Assembly: GCA_017545905.1 (NCBI GenBank) | Contig: JAFWXL010000084.1 | Location: forward strand, 1 to 58,609 | Direction of reading: 5' to 3' | DNA from: Clostridia bacterium | GTDB taxonomy: Bacteria; Bacillota; Clostridia; Christensenellales; Aristaeellaceae | Length of the DNA stretch: 58,609 nucleotides | In this document: positions 25,098 to 58,609 of the stretch, one piece after another | Position numbering within the stretch: the first letter of the stretch is position 1 | Layout of the letters: every line of letters starts with the position of its first letter | The notes under the pieces: generated by a model | The model's database searches: none | Seen by the model: only the letters and a program-made list of their open reading frames with translations | What the model was told of the DNA's origin: nothing | Program-made: the position numbers and the translations under genes

Positions 25098-25679
25098 TTA
25101 AGCACGGTTCGTTTCCTTCAGGTAGATGCTGCGCAGTTCCTGGTAGGCGGCTTCAAGATCGCCGCCATTGACAATGCGATACTTGTAACGCCCGGCGTAT
25201 TCCAGTTCACCGCGCGCGGTTTCAAGGCGCTTGAGAACCTTTTCCTCGGTCTCAGTGCCGCGTCCGCGCAGGCGGCGCTCCAGCTCCTCAAAGCTGGGCG
25301 GCAGCACAAAGATGCTCACGCAATCGGGCATGCGCTCCATGACCTGCATCGCACCCTGCACCTCAATCTCGAGCAGAACATTCTTGCCCTGATCGAGCAA
25401 GCTCATGACGTATGACTTCGGCGTGCCGTAGCAATTTCCGGCAAACTGCGCATACTCCAGAAAATCATTATTCGCGATGCGCGATTCAAACTCCTGCTTG
25501 CTGATGAAAAAGTAGTGCTTGCCGTCGATCTCGCCCTCGCGCGGCGCACGCGTCGTTGCAGAAACCGAAAACGCCATCTGTTCGCCAAACTCCTCAAAGA
25601 GCTTCGCATTGAGCGTGCCTTTGCCCACGCCGGACGGGCCGGAGAACACAAACAGCGTTCCTCTCTCTTGCGTCTGCAT
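25098..25679 (-). CDS. gmk: Guanylate kinase
   Basis: Converts GMP to GDP with ATP. The P-loop GPSGVGKGT lies at 14-22. The GMP-binding segment is present (SATTRAPREGEIDGKHYFF, then FLEYAQFAGNCYGTPK), as is the LEIEVQGAMQV segment. The length of 193 aa is normal. The start overlaps the remA stop (TGATG), so translation is probably coupled. Confidence 0.96.
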   Translation of the reverse strand: MQTQERGTLFVFSGPSGVGKGTLNAKLFEEFGEQMAFSVSATTRAPREGEIDGKHYFFISKQEFESRIANNDFLEYAQFAGNCYGTPKSYVMSLLDQGKNVLLEIEVQGAMQVMERMPDCVSIFVLPPSFEELERRLRGRGTETEEKVLKRLETARGELEYAGRYKYRIVNGGDLEAAYQELRSIYLKETNRA

Positions 25680-25954
25680 CAGGCTTCTTCCTCCTCCACA
25701 ATCGTGGTATTGTCCTTGACGTCGAAGCGATGCGCTATCGTCTCAGGCTGCACAGCCGAGAGAATCACGTGGTCGCTGTCGGAAATGATCACCGCGCGCG
25801 TGCGGCGGCCGTAGGTCGCGTCGATGAGACGGCGCTCCTCTTTGGCCTCCTGAATGATGCGCTTGACCGGCGCAGATTCCGGGCCGATGATCGCAATGAT
25901 GCGGCTGGAGGAAATGAAATTTCCATAGCCGACGTTGATGAGCTTGATATCCAT
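25679..25954 (-). CDS. remA: RemA (DUF370) DNA-binding regulator
   Basis: Small protein of the RemA/DUF370 family, 91 aa. In Bacillus RemA is a DNA-binding activator of biofilm-matrix and osmoprotection genes; the role in Clostridia is less clear. The signature [16 protein letters not shown] and the [15 protein letters not shown] segment are intact. GGAGG precedes the ATG. It lies between yicC and gmk, as in many Firmicutes, but here it is separated from yicC by a 207-bp region filled with a repeat element. Confidence 0.94.
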
Positions 25955-25970: not shown

Positions 25971-26150
25971 GGGGACGTTGAGGCTGCCGCCTCAAACTCC
26001 GCCTGAGGGATATCATCCCTCAGACTCCCTTCTTCCGCTTCGCGGCTGTTTTAAGCAATTCTATCTTATCCCTCCGCTGCGCGTACGCGCAGCGATGAAG
26101 GGGTTCGGGGACAATGTCCCCGGGCGGGTCTTAGGGCGGCAGCCCTAACG
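25971..26150. repeat. Modular hairpin intergenic element, copy A (full)
   Basis: Fills most of the gap between yicC and remA. Consecutive inverted repeats are m1 TTGAGGC-TGCC-GCCTCAA (25978-25995); m2, 9-bp stem CTGAGGGAT with loop ATC (26003-26023); m3 CCGC-TTC-GCGG (26035-26045); a linker with TTTTAAGCAA and TCTATCTTATCCCTC; m4, perfect 20-nt palindrome with half CGCTGCGCGT (26075-26094); m5 CGGGGACA-A-TGTCCCCG (26106-26122); m6 TTAGGGC-GGCA-GCCCTAA (26131-26148). Copies C and D share the order and linker; copy B has only the left half. The gap contains nothing else recognisable. Confidence 0.9.
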
Positions 26151-26161
26151 TCTCCCCCGCT

Positions 26162-27034
26162 TTACTCCACGTTTTGCACCTGCTCGCGCAGCTTCTCGAT
26201 TTCGCCCTTGGCAGAGACGACCGCCTGAGCGATCATCGTATCGGAAGCCTTGGAGCCGATGGTATTGACCTCGCGGTTAAGCTCCTGTACAAGGAAGTCC
26301 AGCTTACGGCCAACAGGCTCGGTAAGCTCAACGGTCTCGCGGATTGCAGCGATATGGCTGAGCAGACGAACGAGCTCCTCATCGATCGCAGCGCGATCGG
26401 CAAAGATAGCAACCTCGGTGATCAGCCTCGCCTCATCGATCTCGCCCTCAGTCAGCGCGGCAATGCGCTGATGCAGCTTATCGCGATACTCCTCCACCAC
26501 CAGCGGCGCGCGTTCAAGCACGCGTTCGCGGATAGAGGCAATATTGGCAATTTTCTCAAGGATGTCCGCACGCATGCGCGCGCCCTCCTGCTCGCGCATG
26601 ACGATCAAACCGTCCAGCGCGCCGCAAAGCGCACGCTCAAACAGCTCGCGCACAGCCTGCTGGTCCTCTTCCTTCTCCTGAACCGTCAGCACGTCCGGAA
26701 GGCGGGCATAATCGGTCAGCGGCACGTCGGCATTCTTGCCTACAGCGCCTGCCAGTTCGCAAAGCGCCTTCTGATAGGCCACTGCCAGCGCGGTATCAAC
26801 GCGAACCTCCTTGGCGTCCTGACGATGGTTCGCATAACTGACGAACACGTCGACATGACCGCGCGACAGCCTCGCGCCGACGCCCTTGCGCACTGCGTCA
26901 TCCAGAAACGACAGCGTGCGCGACAGCCTGTAGGAAATATCCAGAAAGCGGTGATTAACGCTCTTGACCTCCACGGTCATCTCGCGTCCATCCTCTTCAA
27001 TATGGCATCGGCCATAACCGGTCATGCTCTTCAC
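26162..27034 (-). CDS. yicC: YicC family endoribonuclease
   Basis: YicC/YloC family protein of 290 aa; characterised members are endoribonucleases acting on small RNAs and mRNAs. The family start KSMTGYGR is present, with EVKSVNHRFLDISYR and the C-terminal GRKLDFLVQELNREVNTIGSKA segment. The start is a GTG at 27034 preceded by GAAGGAG. It is the first gene of the yicC-remA-gmk-rpoZ-coaBC run, under the promoter at 27078-27106. Confidence 0.95.
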   Translation of the reverse strand: MKSMTGYGRCHIEEDGREMTVEVKSVNHRFLDISYRLSRTLSFLDDAVRKGVGARLSRGHVDVFVSYANHRQDAKEVRVDTALAVAYQKALCELAGAVGKNADVPLTDYARLPDVLTVQEKEEDQQAVRELFERALCGALDGLIVMREQEGARMRADILEKIANIASIRERVLERAPLVVEEYRDKLHQRIAALTEGEIDEARLITEVAIFADRAAIDEELVRLLSHIAAIRETVELTEPVGRKLDFLVQELNREVNTIGSKASDTMIAQAVVSAKGEIEKLREQVQNVE

Positions 27035-44470: not shown

Positions 44471-44577
44471 GGGGAAGACGTTGGGGCGTCTGCTCCAAAC
44501 CCTGACAAGGGACTTCGCCCCTTGACTCCATGCTCGCTTCGCGGCTGTTTCAAGCAGTTCTGTCTTTATCCCTCCGC
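44471..44577. repeat. Modular hairpin intergenic element, copy B (left half only)
   Basis: Contains m1 TTGGGGC-GTCT-GCTCCAA (44481-44498), m2 CAAGGGACTTCGCCCCTTG (44506-44524, identical to copy C), m3 CGC-TTC-GCG (44535-44543) and the linker (GTTTCAAGCAG, then TGTCTTTATCCCTCCGC). It stops exactly where m4 should begin, next to the stop codon of the phosphoribosyltransferase gene. It fills the rest of the gap 44451-44578. Confidence 0.85.
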
Positions 44578-44578
44578 C

Positions 44579-45139
44579 TTACGCCAGGACCTCGCCCTGC
44601 GCATCAAAGAGCGGGAGCTTCTCCAGATAGATCAGATCTTCACGATCCTGCGCATCACCCTCGGCCAGAATCGCCATACGGCCGCAGATTTCGCCGCCGG
44701 CCTTGTCGACCAGCTCTTCCAATGCGCGAAGGGATTCTCCTGTAGAGATGACGTCGTCAACAATCAGGATCTTCTTGCCATGCATGAGCTTGGCGTCCTC
44801 TCCGTCCAGATACAGCTTCTGCACATGGTCGGTGGTAATGGAGCGCACCTCGACGCTGAACAGGTCCTTCATGTAGAGCTTGGCGCCCTTGCGCGCAAGC
44901 AGCCACTTCTTCGCGCCGATCTGGCGGGCCATCTCGTAAGCCAGCGGAATGCCCTTGCTCTCAGCGGTGATGATGTAATCAAACTCAGGCGCACGCTTGA
45001 GCAGCTCGGATGCGCAGGCGACGGTCAGCTCGCAGTCACCAAAGATGACAAAACCGGCGATGCAGAGCTTATCATTGAGCGGGCAGATGGGCAGGTCGCG
45101 CTCGCAACCTGCAATTGTCATATGATAATGCGTCTTCAT
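44579..45139 (-). CDS. Phosphoribosyltransferase family protein (adenine phosphoribosyltransferase-like)
   Basis: Type I phosphoribosyltransferase of 186 aa. The PRPP loop is ILIVDDVISTGESL (about 124-137), preceded by the ITAESKGIPLAYEMARQIGA segment expected of Apt-like enzymes. It probably salvages a purine base, but the substrate cannot be told from the sequence, and xanthine or orotate are alternatives. The classical apt between recJ and rel is missing, so this gene may replace it. A good promoter lies 59-87 bp upstream. No purine riboswitch is recognisable in the short leader, which has only a 6-bp GGCGC hairpin. Confidence 0.8.
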   Translation of the reverse strand: MKTHYHMTIAGCERDLPICPLNDKLCIAGFVIFGDCELTVACASELLKRAPEFDYIITAESKGIPLAYEMARQIGAKKWLLARKGAKLYMKDLFSVEVRSITTDHVQKLYLDGEDAKLMHGKKILIVDDVISTGESLRALEELVDKAGGEICGRMAILAEGDAQDREDLIYLEKLPLFDAQGEVLA

Positions 45140-47614: not shown

Positions 47615-47800
47615 GGCGGGGGTACGTTGGGGCGGCTGCCCCAATCCCCGCCAAGGGACTTCGCCCCTTGACCCCATACTCGCTTCGCGCCGGTTTTAAG
47701 CAACACGGTCTGATTCCCTCCGCAGCGCGCATGCGCGCTGCGATGACGGGGTCTGGGGATGAATTCCCCAGGCAGGTCTTAGGGCGGCAGCCCTAACATC
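47615..47800. repeat. Modular hairpin intergenic element, copy C (full), between nrdD and nrdG
   Basis: m1 TTGGGGC-GGCT-GCCCCAA (47627-47644); m2 CAAGGGACTTCGCCCCTTG (47652-47670); m3 CGC-TTC-GCG (about 47691-47699); linker GGTTTTAAGCAA and TTCCCTC; m4, a perfect 22-nt palindrome with half CGCAGCGCGCA (47721-47742); m5 CTGGGGA-TGAAT-TCCCCAG (47753-47771); m6 TTAGGGC-GGCA-GCCCTAA (47779-47796, identical to copy A). It starts three bases after the nrdD stop and fills almost the whole gap. Confidence 0.9.
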
Positions 47801-48867: not shown

Positions 48868-49047
48868 GGGGGCGCGGGGCTGCCGCCCAGACCCGCTGAG
48901 GGATATCATCCCTCAGACTCCCTTTCTCCGCTTCGCGGCGGCTTTAAGCAAGTCTATCTTATTCCCTCCGCTGCGCGCATGCGCGCAGCGATGAAGGGTG
49001 CAGGGACAATGTCCCTGCCAGGGGTCTGGGGACAGCGTCCCCAGACG
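48868..49047. repeat. Modular hairpin intergenic element, copy D (full, variant right end)
   Basis: m1 reduced to GGGC-TGCC-GCCC (48877-48888); m2 identical to copy A (48896-48916); m3 CCGC-TTC-GCGG (48928-48938); linker CTTTAAGCAAGTCTATCTTA; m4, perfect 22-nt palindrome with half CGCTGCGCGCA (48969-48990); m5 CAGGGACA-A-TGTCCCTG (49001-49017); a different m6 with 9-bp stem TCTGGGGAC and loop AGC (49025-49045). It lies between dut and the fRMsr gene and ends 12 bases before that gene's ribosome site. Confidence 0.9.
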
Positions 49048-56866: not shown

Positions 56867-58609
56867 TTACTTCACTTCAACGAAGTAGAGCATACCGCCC
56901 GTCGTACCGACGACAACCTTGTTGCCATAGGCAGCCGGAGAAGCCTGAATCGGGCTGCCGAGCTTCACAAAGTGAATCGTGGAGCCGGTATAGCCGTCCA
57001 TCAGACGGAGCGTGCCGCCGTCATCGCCCATGACCAGATAGCTTCTGCCGTCCGGCTCATACATGGCAATCGGAGAAGAAACGGACTGAACGTCAATCGG
57101 CTGGCTCCAGACCTCTTCACCGGTCAGCTTATCAAGCGCATAGACAACCGCGTAGTTCTCCTTGCCGTCGACAACGTTATTGACGTTGAAGATGACCAGA
57201 TCGCTGATATCGCCCTCGCCGACCAGCGGCGCTGCCATCAATCCGGCGTAGATGCCCGCCTTCGCCGCAGCGCTGGTATACTTGCCCTTGATCTCATTCT
57301 GGCATTCCCAGATAATCTCGCCGGTCATCGCATTGAGCTTCACCAGACGGATCTGGCTGCTCTTGGCGCGCTTATTGACCACGTTGCCCGCGTAGAGATA
57401 AACCTCTTCATCCTCTCCGATCTCCAGAGAGACGGGCGCGACAACGCTGTCGCCCATGTCGATCGCCCAGACGGGCTTCATGGTATTGAGGTCCAGACAC
57501 TGAATCGAACCGGCATAATCGCCGAAGAAGACATAATCGCCGTAAGCGGCCACGCTGGAGGTGATGTTGTACTGCTTGCTGTTCTTGATCTTGGTCTTGT
57601 ACGCGTAGGAGGAGAGCTCCGGAGACACGGAAATCTCGCCCTTTTCAAGATCAAACCTGGTATTCATCGCAAGCGTATTGATCGTGCCGTTTTCAGAGGC
57701 ATAGATCAGCGTATCGGAAGCGGCTTCCACAAGCGCAGAAGTACGGATGGAGCCCTCCTCATTATTCGCCTGAGAGAGCATGCTCGGCACAAACGCAGCC
57801 ATGCTCTGATCAATCAGGCTGTATACGCGCATACCGATGATGCCCTTGTGGCTGCTGAGGGTATCTTCACTCTGGCCGACATAGAGCAGCGGGTAGCCAT
57901 ACGGGTTGACGCTGGCGGTAGCCTGCATCGGATAACCGACATTGATGGGATCACGGCTGTAGGTCTGAGTATCCAGATCGAAGAAATAGATGCGGCCGTC
58001 GCTGGACGGATAGATGACTTCCTTCATCGCCGTGGTCGTCTTCGCGGCATCGCTGAGGTTCATCATCTCGCGGATATTCTTATACCACTTGACAATCAGC
58101 GGCTGAGAACCATAGCCATAGCCCATGTACTTGCCGTCAAGAGACGTGGTGCGGATACCGCGCAGCACAGAAAGCTCCTCGGTTTCCAGCTCGATGGTGC
58201 CGTAAGCGCCGTTCTGACGCAGCGGACCGCCGCGGTAAGTCAGCAGGCCGCCCTGAGCGGTATAGTGATCCGGATCACCCATACTCACATCCGTATTGCG
58301 GGCATAGCCCTCGCTCACCTGCTCGTCGCCGATGATCACAAAGCTCTCCTTGATCACATTAGCCGGATCGCTCGCCTCGGCAGCACTTGCCGTGCTGGGC
58401 GTATACGGCGTGGGAGACGGAGTCGGGGTGGGCGTCGGGGTCGGAGTAGGCGTCGGAGTGGGCGTTGGCGTCGGCGTCGGGGTGGGCGTCGGCGTCGGAG
58501 TGGGCGTCGGCGTCGGAGTGGGCGTCGGCGTCGGAGTGGGCGTCGGCGTCGGAGTGGGCGTCGGCGTCGGAGTGGGCGTCGGCGTCGGAGTGGGCGTCGG
58601 CGTCGGAGT
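56867..58609 (-). CDS. PQQ-like beta-propeller repeat protein with Thr-Pro-rich stalk (partial)
   Basis: The frame is open to the right edge, so the N terminus is missing. About 65 in-window residues at the N-terminal side are nearly pure Thr-Pro repeats, followed by a short [20 protein letters not shown] segment and then a beta-propeller of about 495 residues. Propeller blades show the PQQ_2 pattern ([67 protein letters not shown]). PQQ-enzyme ligands are not evident; such propellers usually act in binding or scaffolding. A cell-surface protein, with the stalk crossing the wall, is inferred. A GTG within the frame at 58357 is not the real start. A terminator follows. Confidence 0.88.
58409..58609. 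repeat. 18-bp tandem repeat coding for Thr-Pro
   Basis: The plus-strand unit GGCGTCGGCGTCGGAGTG is repeated without change from about 58490 to the edge, with diverged copies (including GGGGTGGGCGTC) back to 58409. On the minus strand each unit reads Thr-Pro three times. All steps are multiples of 3, so length changes keep the reading frame. Confidence 0.9.

Follow-up and report, generated by a model that had tools for sequence, protein, structure and literature searches.

A high-copy three-hairpin intergenic repeat of uncultured Clostridia whose stems and neighbouring tracts change together, possibly as short intrastrand triplexes

The pneumococcal BOX is a modular stem-loop intergenic repeat in a Firmicute, and the element described in the following can be likened to it in this respect, by description alone. 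REP sequences, in the sections of Di Nocera et al. 2013 cited here (PMC3733652), are high-copy intergenic palindromes of 20-40 bp that carry an unpaired GTAG or CGTC tag. BoxC, PIT elements and TM_ECO are interspersed bacterial repeats with three consecutive G/C-rich segments, and in the case of TM_ECO these segments could adopt a purine-motif intrastrand triplex whose loops are short, with inverted copies occurring too (Holder et al. 2015, PMC4666352, here and below for the parts cited). TM_ECO follows one fixed pattern of class II (Y-R-R) with 9-nt stems, belongs to Proteobacteria and is linked to local instability. According to the same source, the E. coli triplex motif, of another class than the one considered here, folds in vitro, is seemingly minor or temporary in the cell and marks unstable loci, and purine-motif triplexes are reported not to form in RNA. 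The main text of that paper contains no mention of Clostridia or Firmicutes, nor of covariation or compensation.

The repeat analysed here shares features with each of these systems. Like REP, BIME and REPIN sequences (PMC3733652), it consists of high-copy intergenic palindromes, often in opposite-orientation pairs, that lie downstream of genes and for the most part in tandem or convergent gaps. Unlike REP, its unit is a three-hairpin arm of ~76 nt and not a 20-40-bp palindrome, it has no unpaired GTAG or CGTC tag, and many of its hairpins stand beside a matched third segment. Like BoxC, PIT elements and TM_ECO (PMC4666352), it is an interspersed repeat with three consecutive G/C-rich segments; as in TM_ECO, these could form an intrastrand triplex of the purine motif, joined by short loops, and inverted copies occur. 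Unlike TM_ECO, the motif is of class I (R-R-Y) on the G-rich strand, comprises 3-6 triads, occurs up to twice per arm, is variable in sequence with a mostly matched third segment, and is found in Clostridia; the exact TM_ECO pattern, with no mismatch allowed, was absent from 409134 bp of the genome under study (G000). Altogether, the repeat is real and its general kind is known (REP-like, intrastrand-triplex-like), the family is new, and the three-way matching of stem and tract is the new part that is worth following. We propose, with a probability of roughly 0.4, that this is a non-coding, REP/BIME-like interspersed repeat whose tracts would be kept as third strands of short intrastrand triplexes.

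The window, i.e. the whole stretch of 58,609 nucleotides that was analysed, is contig C96 of the 115-contig, 2.53-Mb assembly G000 (completeness 77.78%). A preliminary description of it had given four intergenic regions (A to D) the common layout m1-m2-m3-linker-m4-m5-m6. The sequences described there were found at their coordinates, and this layout was recovered in A, C and D, whereas B is a single arm with core that lacks m4-m6. Modular hairpins were indeed present, but they are not six separate modules, since m4-m5-m6 are the opposite-strand counterparts of m3, m2 and m1: A, C and D each consist of a ~76-nt arm (hp1-hp2-hp3) and its inverted partner around a core of ~30 nt. In left-arm orientation, an arm reads ACG, hp1 (TTAGGGC/GCCCTAA and variants), a tract, hp2 (CTGAGGGAT/ATCCCTCAG and variants), a second tract, hp3 (CGCTTCGCG) and GCGGTTTTAAG. 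The perfect palindrome reported for m4 was found again by reading, with 20 nt in A and 22 nt in C and D. Scores in the following list are those of covariance-model matches.

25975..26056, plus strand: left arm of A (71.2 bits)
25978-25995, 25997-26000 and 26003-26023, plus strand: hp1, tract and hp2 of the left arm of A (by reading)
26025-26030 and 26036-26044, plus strand: second tract and hp3 of the left arm of A (by reading)
26075..26094, no strand: m4 of A, 20-nt perfect palindrome and hp3 counterpart of the right arm (by reading)
26081..26151, minus strand: right arm of A (77.4 bits)
26100-26103 and 26106-26122, plus-strand coordinates: tract and hp5 of the right arm of A (by reading)
26126-26128 and 26131-26148, plus-strand coordinates: tract and hp6 of the right arm of A (by reading)
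44478..44555, plus strand: single arm of B (82.2 bits)
47624..47701, plus strand: left arm of C (92.5 bits)
47729..47799, minus strand: right arm of C, including the 22-nt palindrome (75.1 bits)
48874..48949, plus strand: left arm of D (63.3 bits)
48970..49047, minus strand: right arm of D, including the 22-nt palindrome (41.2 bits; absent from the 150 G000 matches listed)

Region A is flanked by yicC (26162-27034) on one side and on the other by a small gene (25679-25954), beyond which comes a guanylate kinase gene. B adjoins a phosphoribosyltransferase gene (44579-45139, minus strand; Pfam Pribosyltran). C sits between nrdD (end 47611) and nrdG (start 47842; Pfam NRDD and Fer4_12), and D between a dUTPase gene (end 48858) and a GAF-domain gene (start 49070; Pfam dUTPase and GAF).

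A covariance model was built from 18 arms. The genome-wide search for further copies that the preliminary description had proposed yielded at least 150 arms in the assembly (of 1769 candidates, 150 were scored, and each of these matched). At least 150 arms were likewise found in the sister species G123 (150/150 scored) and at least 136 in the genus mate G032 (136/150 scored), while none of 150 scored candidates from the genus mate G116 matched the model. A sequence profile located 179 arms in 0.41 Mb of G000 and 173 in 0.69 Mb of G123, in stretches picked around matches. Family-wide, 34 of 120 genomes, G000 included, had a match at E<=1e-4; order-wide, under stricter filters, 7 of 151 did, four of these from the same family. 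Other genera carry diverged arrays with the same plan. In one of them, G067, a related three-hairpin array matches 101 times, in many cases with equal score (loci L162, L191, L197, L204), as if recently amplified. Thirteen named relatives, found via a window protein, are MAGs labelled Clostridia, Clostridiales, Lachnospiraceae or Candidatus Ventricola, and the labels of four name the rectum of sheep, goat or water-deer. Identity with part of a named record was seen for one genus-mate locus (Candidatus Ventricola gallistercoris) and for one G123 locus (SIG360). The repeat, with its single or inverted ~76-nt arms, belongs to the uncultured Clostridia genus that holds Candidatus Ventricola gallistercoris.

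The earlier impression that no named element has this layout was borne out in so far as no Rfam family fits. At the gathering threshold, Rfam gave no match in the window, and in a search of six loci (E<=5) the only match above threshold was a THF riboswitch outside the arms (RF01831, 36.9 bits, L022:1857-1963, ~270 nt from an arm). Matches to RF02937 (E 1.5-2.5, 19-20 bits against a threshold of 58.6) were judged to be chance. One 24-base exact pattern of the element had no hit in viral_contigs. In literature searches for an earlier account or for triplex covariation, the element was not recognised among the matches listed, which for broad searches were a small share of the hits.

We then considered the pairing of the stem strands. 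That the arms change together, as had been noticed initially, is clear from 31 double-change cells (shuffled mean 8.9; 0/500 shuffles as high). In the alignment of 18 arms, standard pairs make up 95.9% of pair cells (88.1% on average in shuffles, 0/500 as high), compared with 30-51% for slid partners, and 7 of 18 pairs show a double change (shuffled 4.2; 2/500 as high). Further pair types showed no excess (13 against a shuffled 13.7; 415/500), so that four of five covariation measures exceed the shuffles and one lies within them. In the arms of G000 and G123, 619 of 656 hairpins parsed perfectly. Single stem faults, read on the C-rich strand, comprise 16 distinct A.C, 5 distinct G.T and 14 other cases; the common CAAGGG-ACTTCGC-CCCTTG variant, an A.C fault by reading, parsed as perfect with a 7-nt loop and stands outside the 16. 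As A.C on the C-rich strand corresponds to G.U on the other strand, the asymmetry between A.C and G.T faults (p=0.027) points to RNA.

Beyond these paired arms, most hp2 copies have a third covarying segment, since the tract that follows the hairpin varies together with the stem. Usually located 3-4 nt past the C/T run of the hairpin, it is that run read backwards, as in GAGGG..CCCTC-AGA-CTCCC, CCCC-AGA-CCCC and CCC-TTGA-CCC, and once in TCTCC-AGA-CCTCT. For hp2 of G000 and G123 (352 arms, 294 parsed, 290 used), an exact mirror tract was present in 211/290, against a shuffle mean of 87.5 and a maximum of 112 in 2000 shuffles. The 79 exceptions include 26 copies of the CAAGGG-ACTTCGC variant, where the parser put the fourth C in the loop; the others are stems running into the spacer and some real exceptions, such as window copy B with a CTCC tract after a CCCC run. 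Asymmetric hp2 stems had a mirror tract in 77 of 87 cases and a direct copy in none of the 87. Such a mirror copy, neither direct nor inverted, is what a third strand needs in an intrastrand triplex; the mirror rule was read from the sequences first and the published motif rules were applied afterwards.

For the GGGG and GAGGG stems (n=191), the information shared by stem class and tract amounts to 0.90 of 0.97 bits, against 0.14 bits for stem class and the intervening outer pairs and 0.19 bits for outer pair and tract. Among distinct modules, with 76 hp1 and 6 hp2 copies without detectable tract omitted, the match lies above all 1000 shuffles at offsets 3-5 for hp1 (n=148) and at offsets 1, 3 and 4 for hp2 (n=184). 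From the loop on, agreement falls inside the shuffle range, with hp2 still over the shuffle mean. Both GGGG and GAGGG states were seen on 13 of 60 outer/inner/loop backgrounds, and on 12 of these 13 each state has at least one copy with a matching tract (tract-matched copies 58/66 and 56/61; several backgrounds have one copy per state). Of 22 orthologous arms with a changed stem class, 18 have tracts that agree with their own stems in each of the two species; where the class is unchanged, 16 agree, and 10 arms were unparsed.

In the case of hp1, a CCCC run in stems ending A-T is followed by CCCCT in 58 copies, CCCCG in one and other sequences in 18, and in stems ending C-G by CCCCG in 29, CCCCT in two and others in 12. 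The G after the hp1 tract had been considered as a contradiction of the triplex and was set aside: because T stands there mainly when the stem ends A-T, the G is read as the start of the constant linker. CCC runs of hp1 keep the rule less well, with CCCG in 78 copies and CCT in 74, and the GGGG stems paired with CCC tracts in hp1 of G032 are exceptions to it. In other genera, 81 of 125 distinct modules (40 loci) match at offset 3 against a shuffle maximum of 80, which is weaker support, and of 13 interrupted runs five have a full mirrored tract (L157, L172, L182, L194, L201), two a partial one and six none. Because modules are replaced, copies are not independent, and the mirror figures are not counts of independent three-way changes.

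In the classification of Holder et al. 2015 (PMC4666352), the order R2-loop-R1-loop-Y on the G-rich strand is a class I purine motif. Applying the motif rules given there (stems of 6-15 triads, loops of 1-6; here with no mismatch), 46 strict class I motifs of at least 6 triads were found in the arms and their 25-nt flanks (~21 kb), versus 2 in the remaining 388 kb. With at least 5 triads, the counts in G000 are 161 in arms and 19 outside, such a motif being present in 133 of 179 arms; 115 of the 161 have just 5 triads, under the published minimum of 6. Five letter-shufflings of the arms gave no class I motif. The mirror rule may be kept because the adjacent tract can serve the hairpin as third strand, forming a putative purine-motif triplex of 3-6 triads when the G-rich strand is single-stranded, e.g. 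during replication, transcription or supercoiling. By stalling polymerases or causing template exchange, such folds could account for a turnover of modules; this turnover would fit the report of unstable loci for the E. coli motif and is no proof of it. That the three-stranded fold itself is under selection, with stem and third strand in step across copies, sites and partly genera, we regard as rather unlikely on the sequence patterns at hand. At the RNA level, capping or separation of transcripts may be a further role of the hairpins. Hints of selection on RNA count against the triplex, since purine-motif triplexes are reported absent in RNA, and so does the RNA energy model of region A, which favours a long rod with side hairpins. 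RNA hairpin and DNA triplex may both hold, or the triplex reading may be wrong.

Site occupancy was compared between genomes of the genus. At site C, the element is present in 2 (G000, G123) of 15 genus genomes with both flanking genes, 12 lack it and have gaps of 5-101 nt, and in G032 a different repeat occupies a 334-nt gap. At site D, it is present in 2 of 21 genus genomes, the two sister species, other gaps measuring up to 252 nt. Absence at C and D was judged by gap length and reading, with a model scan of L046-L057 where these are the same loci. An arm stands at the same place in G123 for 46 of 50 G000 sites with both flanks in one G123 stretch, a figure biased upward as the G123 stretches were picked for their arms. 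Among 40 parsed orthologous arms, 34 have hp2 stems that differ between the two species (8 further arms unparsed, 12 differently arranged sites omitted, at least one of the 34 a parsing slip). At site C, core and flanks are near identical and hp1, hp2, hp5 and hp6 all differ; in L105/L298, the hairpins have changed in one arm only. A differing stem at a shared site looks like another member of the same repertoire, and as stems seem to be drawn from one repertoire, gene conversion between copies would be the simplest cause. Stems at shared sites differ but retain strand complementarity and, in most hp2 copies, a tract that is the mirror of the stem's pyrimidine strand. For the initial view that paired change means a conserved structure, this implies that stem strands do stay complementary, but the differences at shared sites (34/40) probably go beyond base-by-base compensation. 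Slower evolution of cores was also considered: it holds by eye at some sites, e.g. C and L105/L298, and found no overall support (median identity 0.65 in the arm, 0.67 in the next 40 nt; n=38).

Gene context was classified with a crude custom ORF caller. The 139 clusters of G000 comprise 101 single arms at the cut-off used and 28 +- pairs, and 11 lie inside crude predicted ORFs. Classified sites were 73 tandem, 27 convergent and 3 divergent in G000 (n=103; 11 in-ORF and 25 unclassified omitted), and 62, 38 and 8 in G123 (n=108; 4 in-ORF and 22 unclassified omitted). Compared with 237 tandem, 84 convergent and 75 divergent background gaps in the G123 stretches (n=396; element gaps included, stretches picked for elements), divergent gaps are avoided, with p=1e-5 in G000 (3/103) and 0.003 in G123 (8/108) against 75/396. 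The gaps of the window alone are 27 tandem, 0 convergent and 2 divergent (n=29). In tandem gaps, the median distance from the upstream stop to the element is 20-25 nt. The element thus has the REP/BIME-type preference for tandem and convergent gaps and opposite-orientation pairs. Tandem single arms have the G-rich strand in the mRNA in 64 of 97 cases (G000 38/53, G123 26/44; pooled p=0.002, G123 alone p=0.29), which points to RNA. A script search for terminators between paired arms found 1/28 and 5/19, a low count because the A-run/T-run hairpins that can be seen by eye in several cores escape the script.

Several of these observations can also be read without a third strand. An ordinary REP/BIME-like 3'-UTR hairpin repeat, in which tracts match stems through joint copying of modules, is a serious possibility at less than even odds. 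It accounts for sister-species stems that differ at the same site like whole-module swaps (sites C and D; 34/40), for the REP-like gene-end location and inverted pairs, for the RNA-type G.U asymmetry, and for the failure of the mirror rule in 74 hp1 copies and in 6/13 interrupted stems of other genera. Joint copying is harder to reconcile with a stem class that shares 0.90 bits with the tract and 0.14 with the outer pairs between them, with both states standing on 12 backgrounds with matching tracts, with a mirror that ends near the loop, and with the same rule on other outer pairs or loops in other genera (L172, L194, L201). A pairing of another kind, in which the tract is the alternative Watson-Crick partner of the stem (a bistable RNA switch) or G-tracts form a G-quadruplex, is very improbable: each arm has several G3-5 tracts on the G-rich strand and, by reading, GGGG/CCCC tracts could re-pair, but a switch would require the tract to be a direct repeat of the stem strand (0/87 asymmetric stems), and a quadruplex does not require, by reasoning, that the tract match the A inside GAGGG.

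The mode of spread was weighed in the same manner. A miniature transposon (MITE) with the arms as ends, moved by some non-Y1 transposase, is suggested by inverted arms around a short core, by sites occupied in one species and empty in another (C and D; L316 vs L101) and by the relative in G067 with its many equal scores among 101 matches. We consider it improbable, as 101/139 G000 clusters are single arms at the cut-off used and neither C, D nor L316/L101 has a clean target duplication, no empty site being close enough to read one. High copy number, palindromes, intergenic location and frequent opposite-orientation pairs would also agree with a REP family mobilised by a RAYT (TnpA-REP) transposase, the partner suggested in the preliminary description. 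This is largely refuted for these genomes and hardly credible for them. A profile search for PF01797 in 16 genomes gave matches in five, partial in G071, G116 and G115 and near full-length in G058 and G001, and nothing in seven, namely G000 (77.8% complete), G032 and G096 (94 and 96% complete), G067, G014, G024 and G062. In addition, GTAG/CTAC stands near an arm end in 1 of 179 arms; the 5' ends of 87 arms are ACGTT in 51, ACGTC in 15 and other in 21, the TC being part of the stem by reading.

If tracts do serve as third strands, the repeat would offer evidence from evolution, in the form of three-way covariation, that intrastrand DNA triplexes occur naturally, and module exchange may be driven by the folds themselves. 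The E. coli motif, being one fixed pattern, says little about which interaction is kept. The many natural variants with matched stem and tract can serve directly as test sets in biophysics and allow compensatory events to be counted, and the repeat could make natural triple-stranded DNA testable. Apart from this, the analysis characterises a repeat occupying gene ends in an uncultured genus with MAGs from sheep, goat and water-deer rectum among its named relatives.

Some minor observations concern sequences within or near the element. An A-run/T-run hairpin, by eye a bidirectional terminator, is located in some paired-arm cores (L105, L095, L133, L298, L307, L315), and GGACGCAGGAAATATCCTGCGTCC recurs unchanged in five G123 cores. 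The last part of the window (58364-58609) is a GTCGG-type tandem repeat, mostly 18-nt spaced, reaching the contig end. The nrdD-nrdG gap of G032 (L239) contains repeat units with GCGGCCTGTGGCCGC, GTTAGGTG and CGCACGAGG, so that this gap seems to attract or tolerate unrelated repeats. Finally, a second repeat, CCTTCCCC..GGGGAAGG..CGGATGAGGTCC..GCAGGCG, adjoins an arm in both G000 and G123 (L118, L311, L304, L306, L295).
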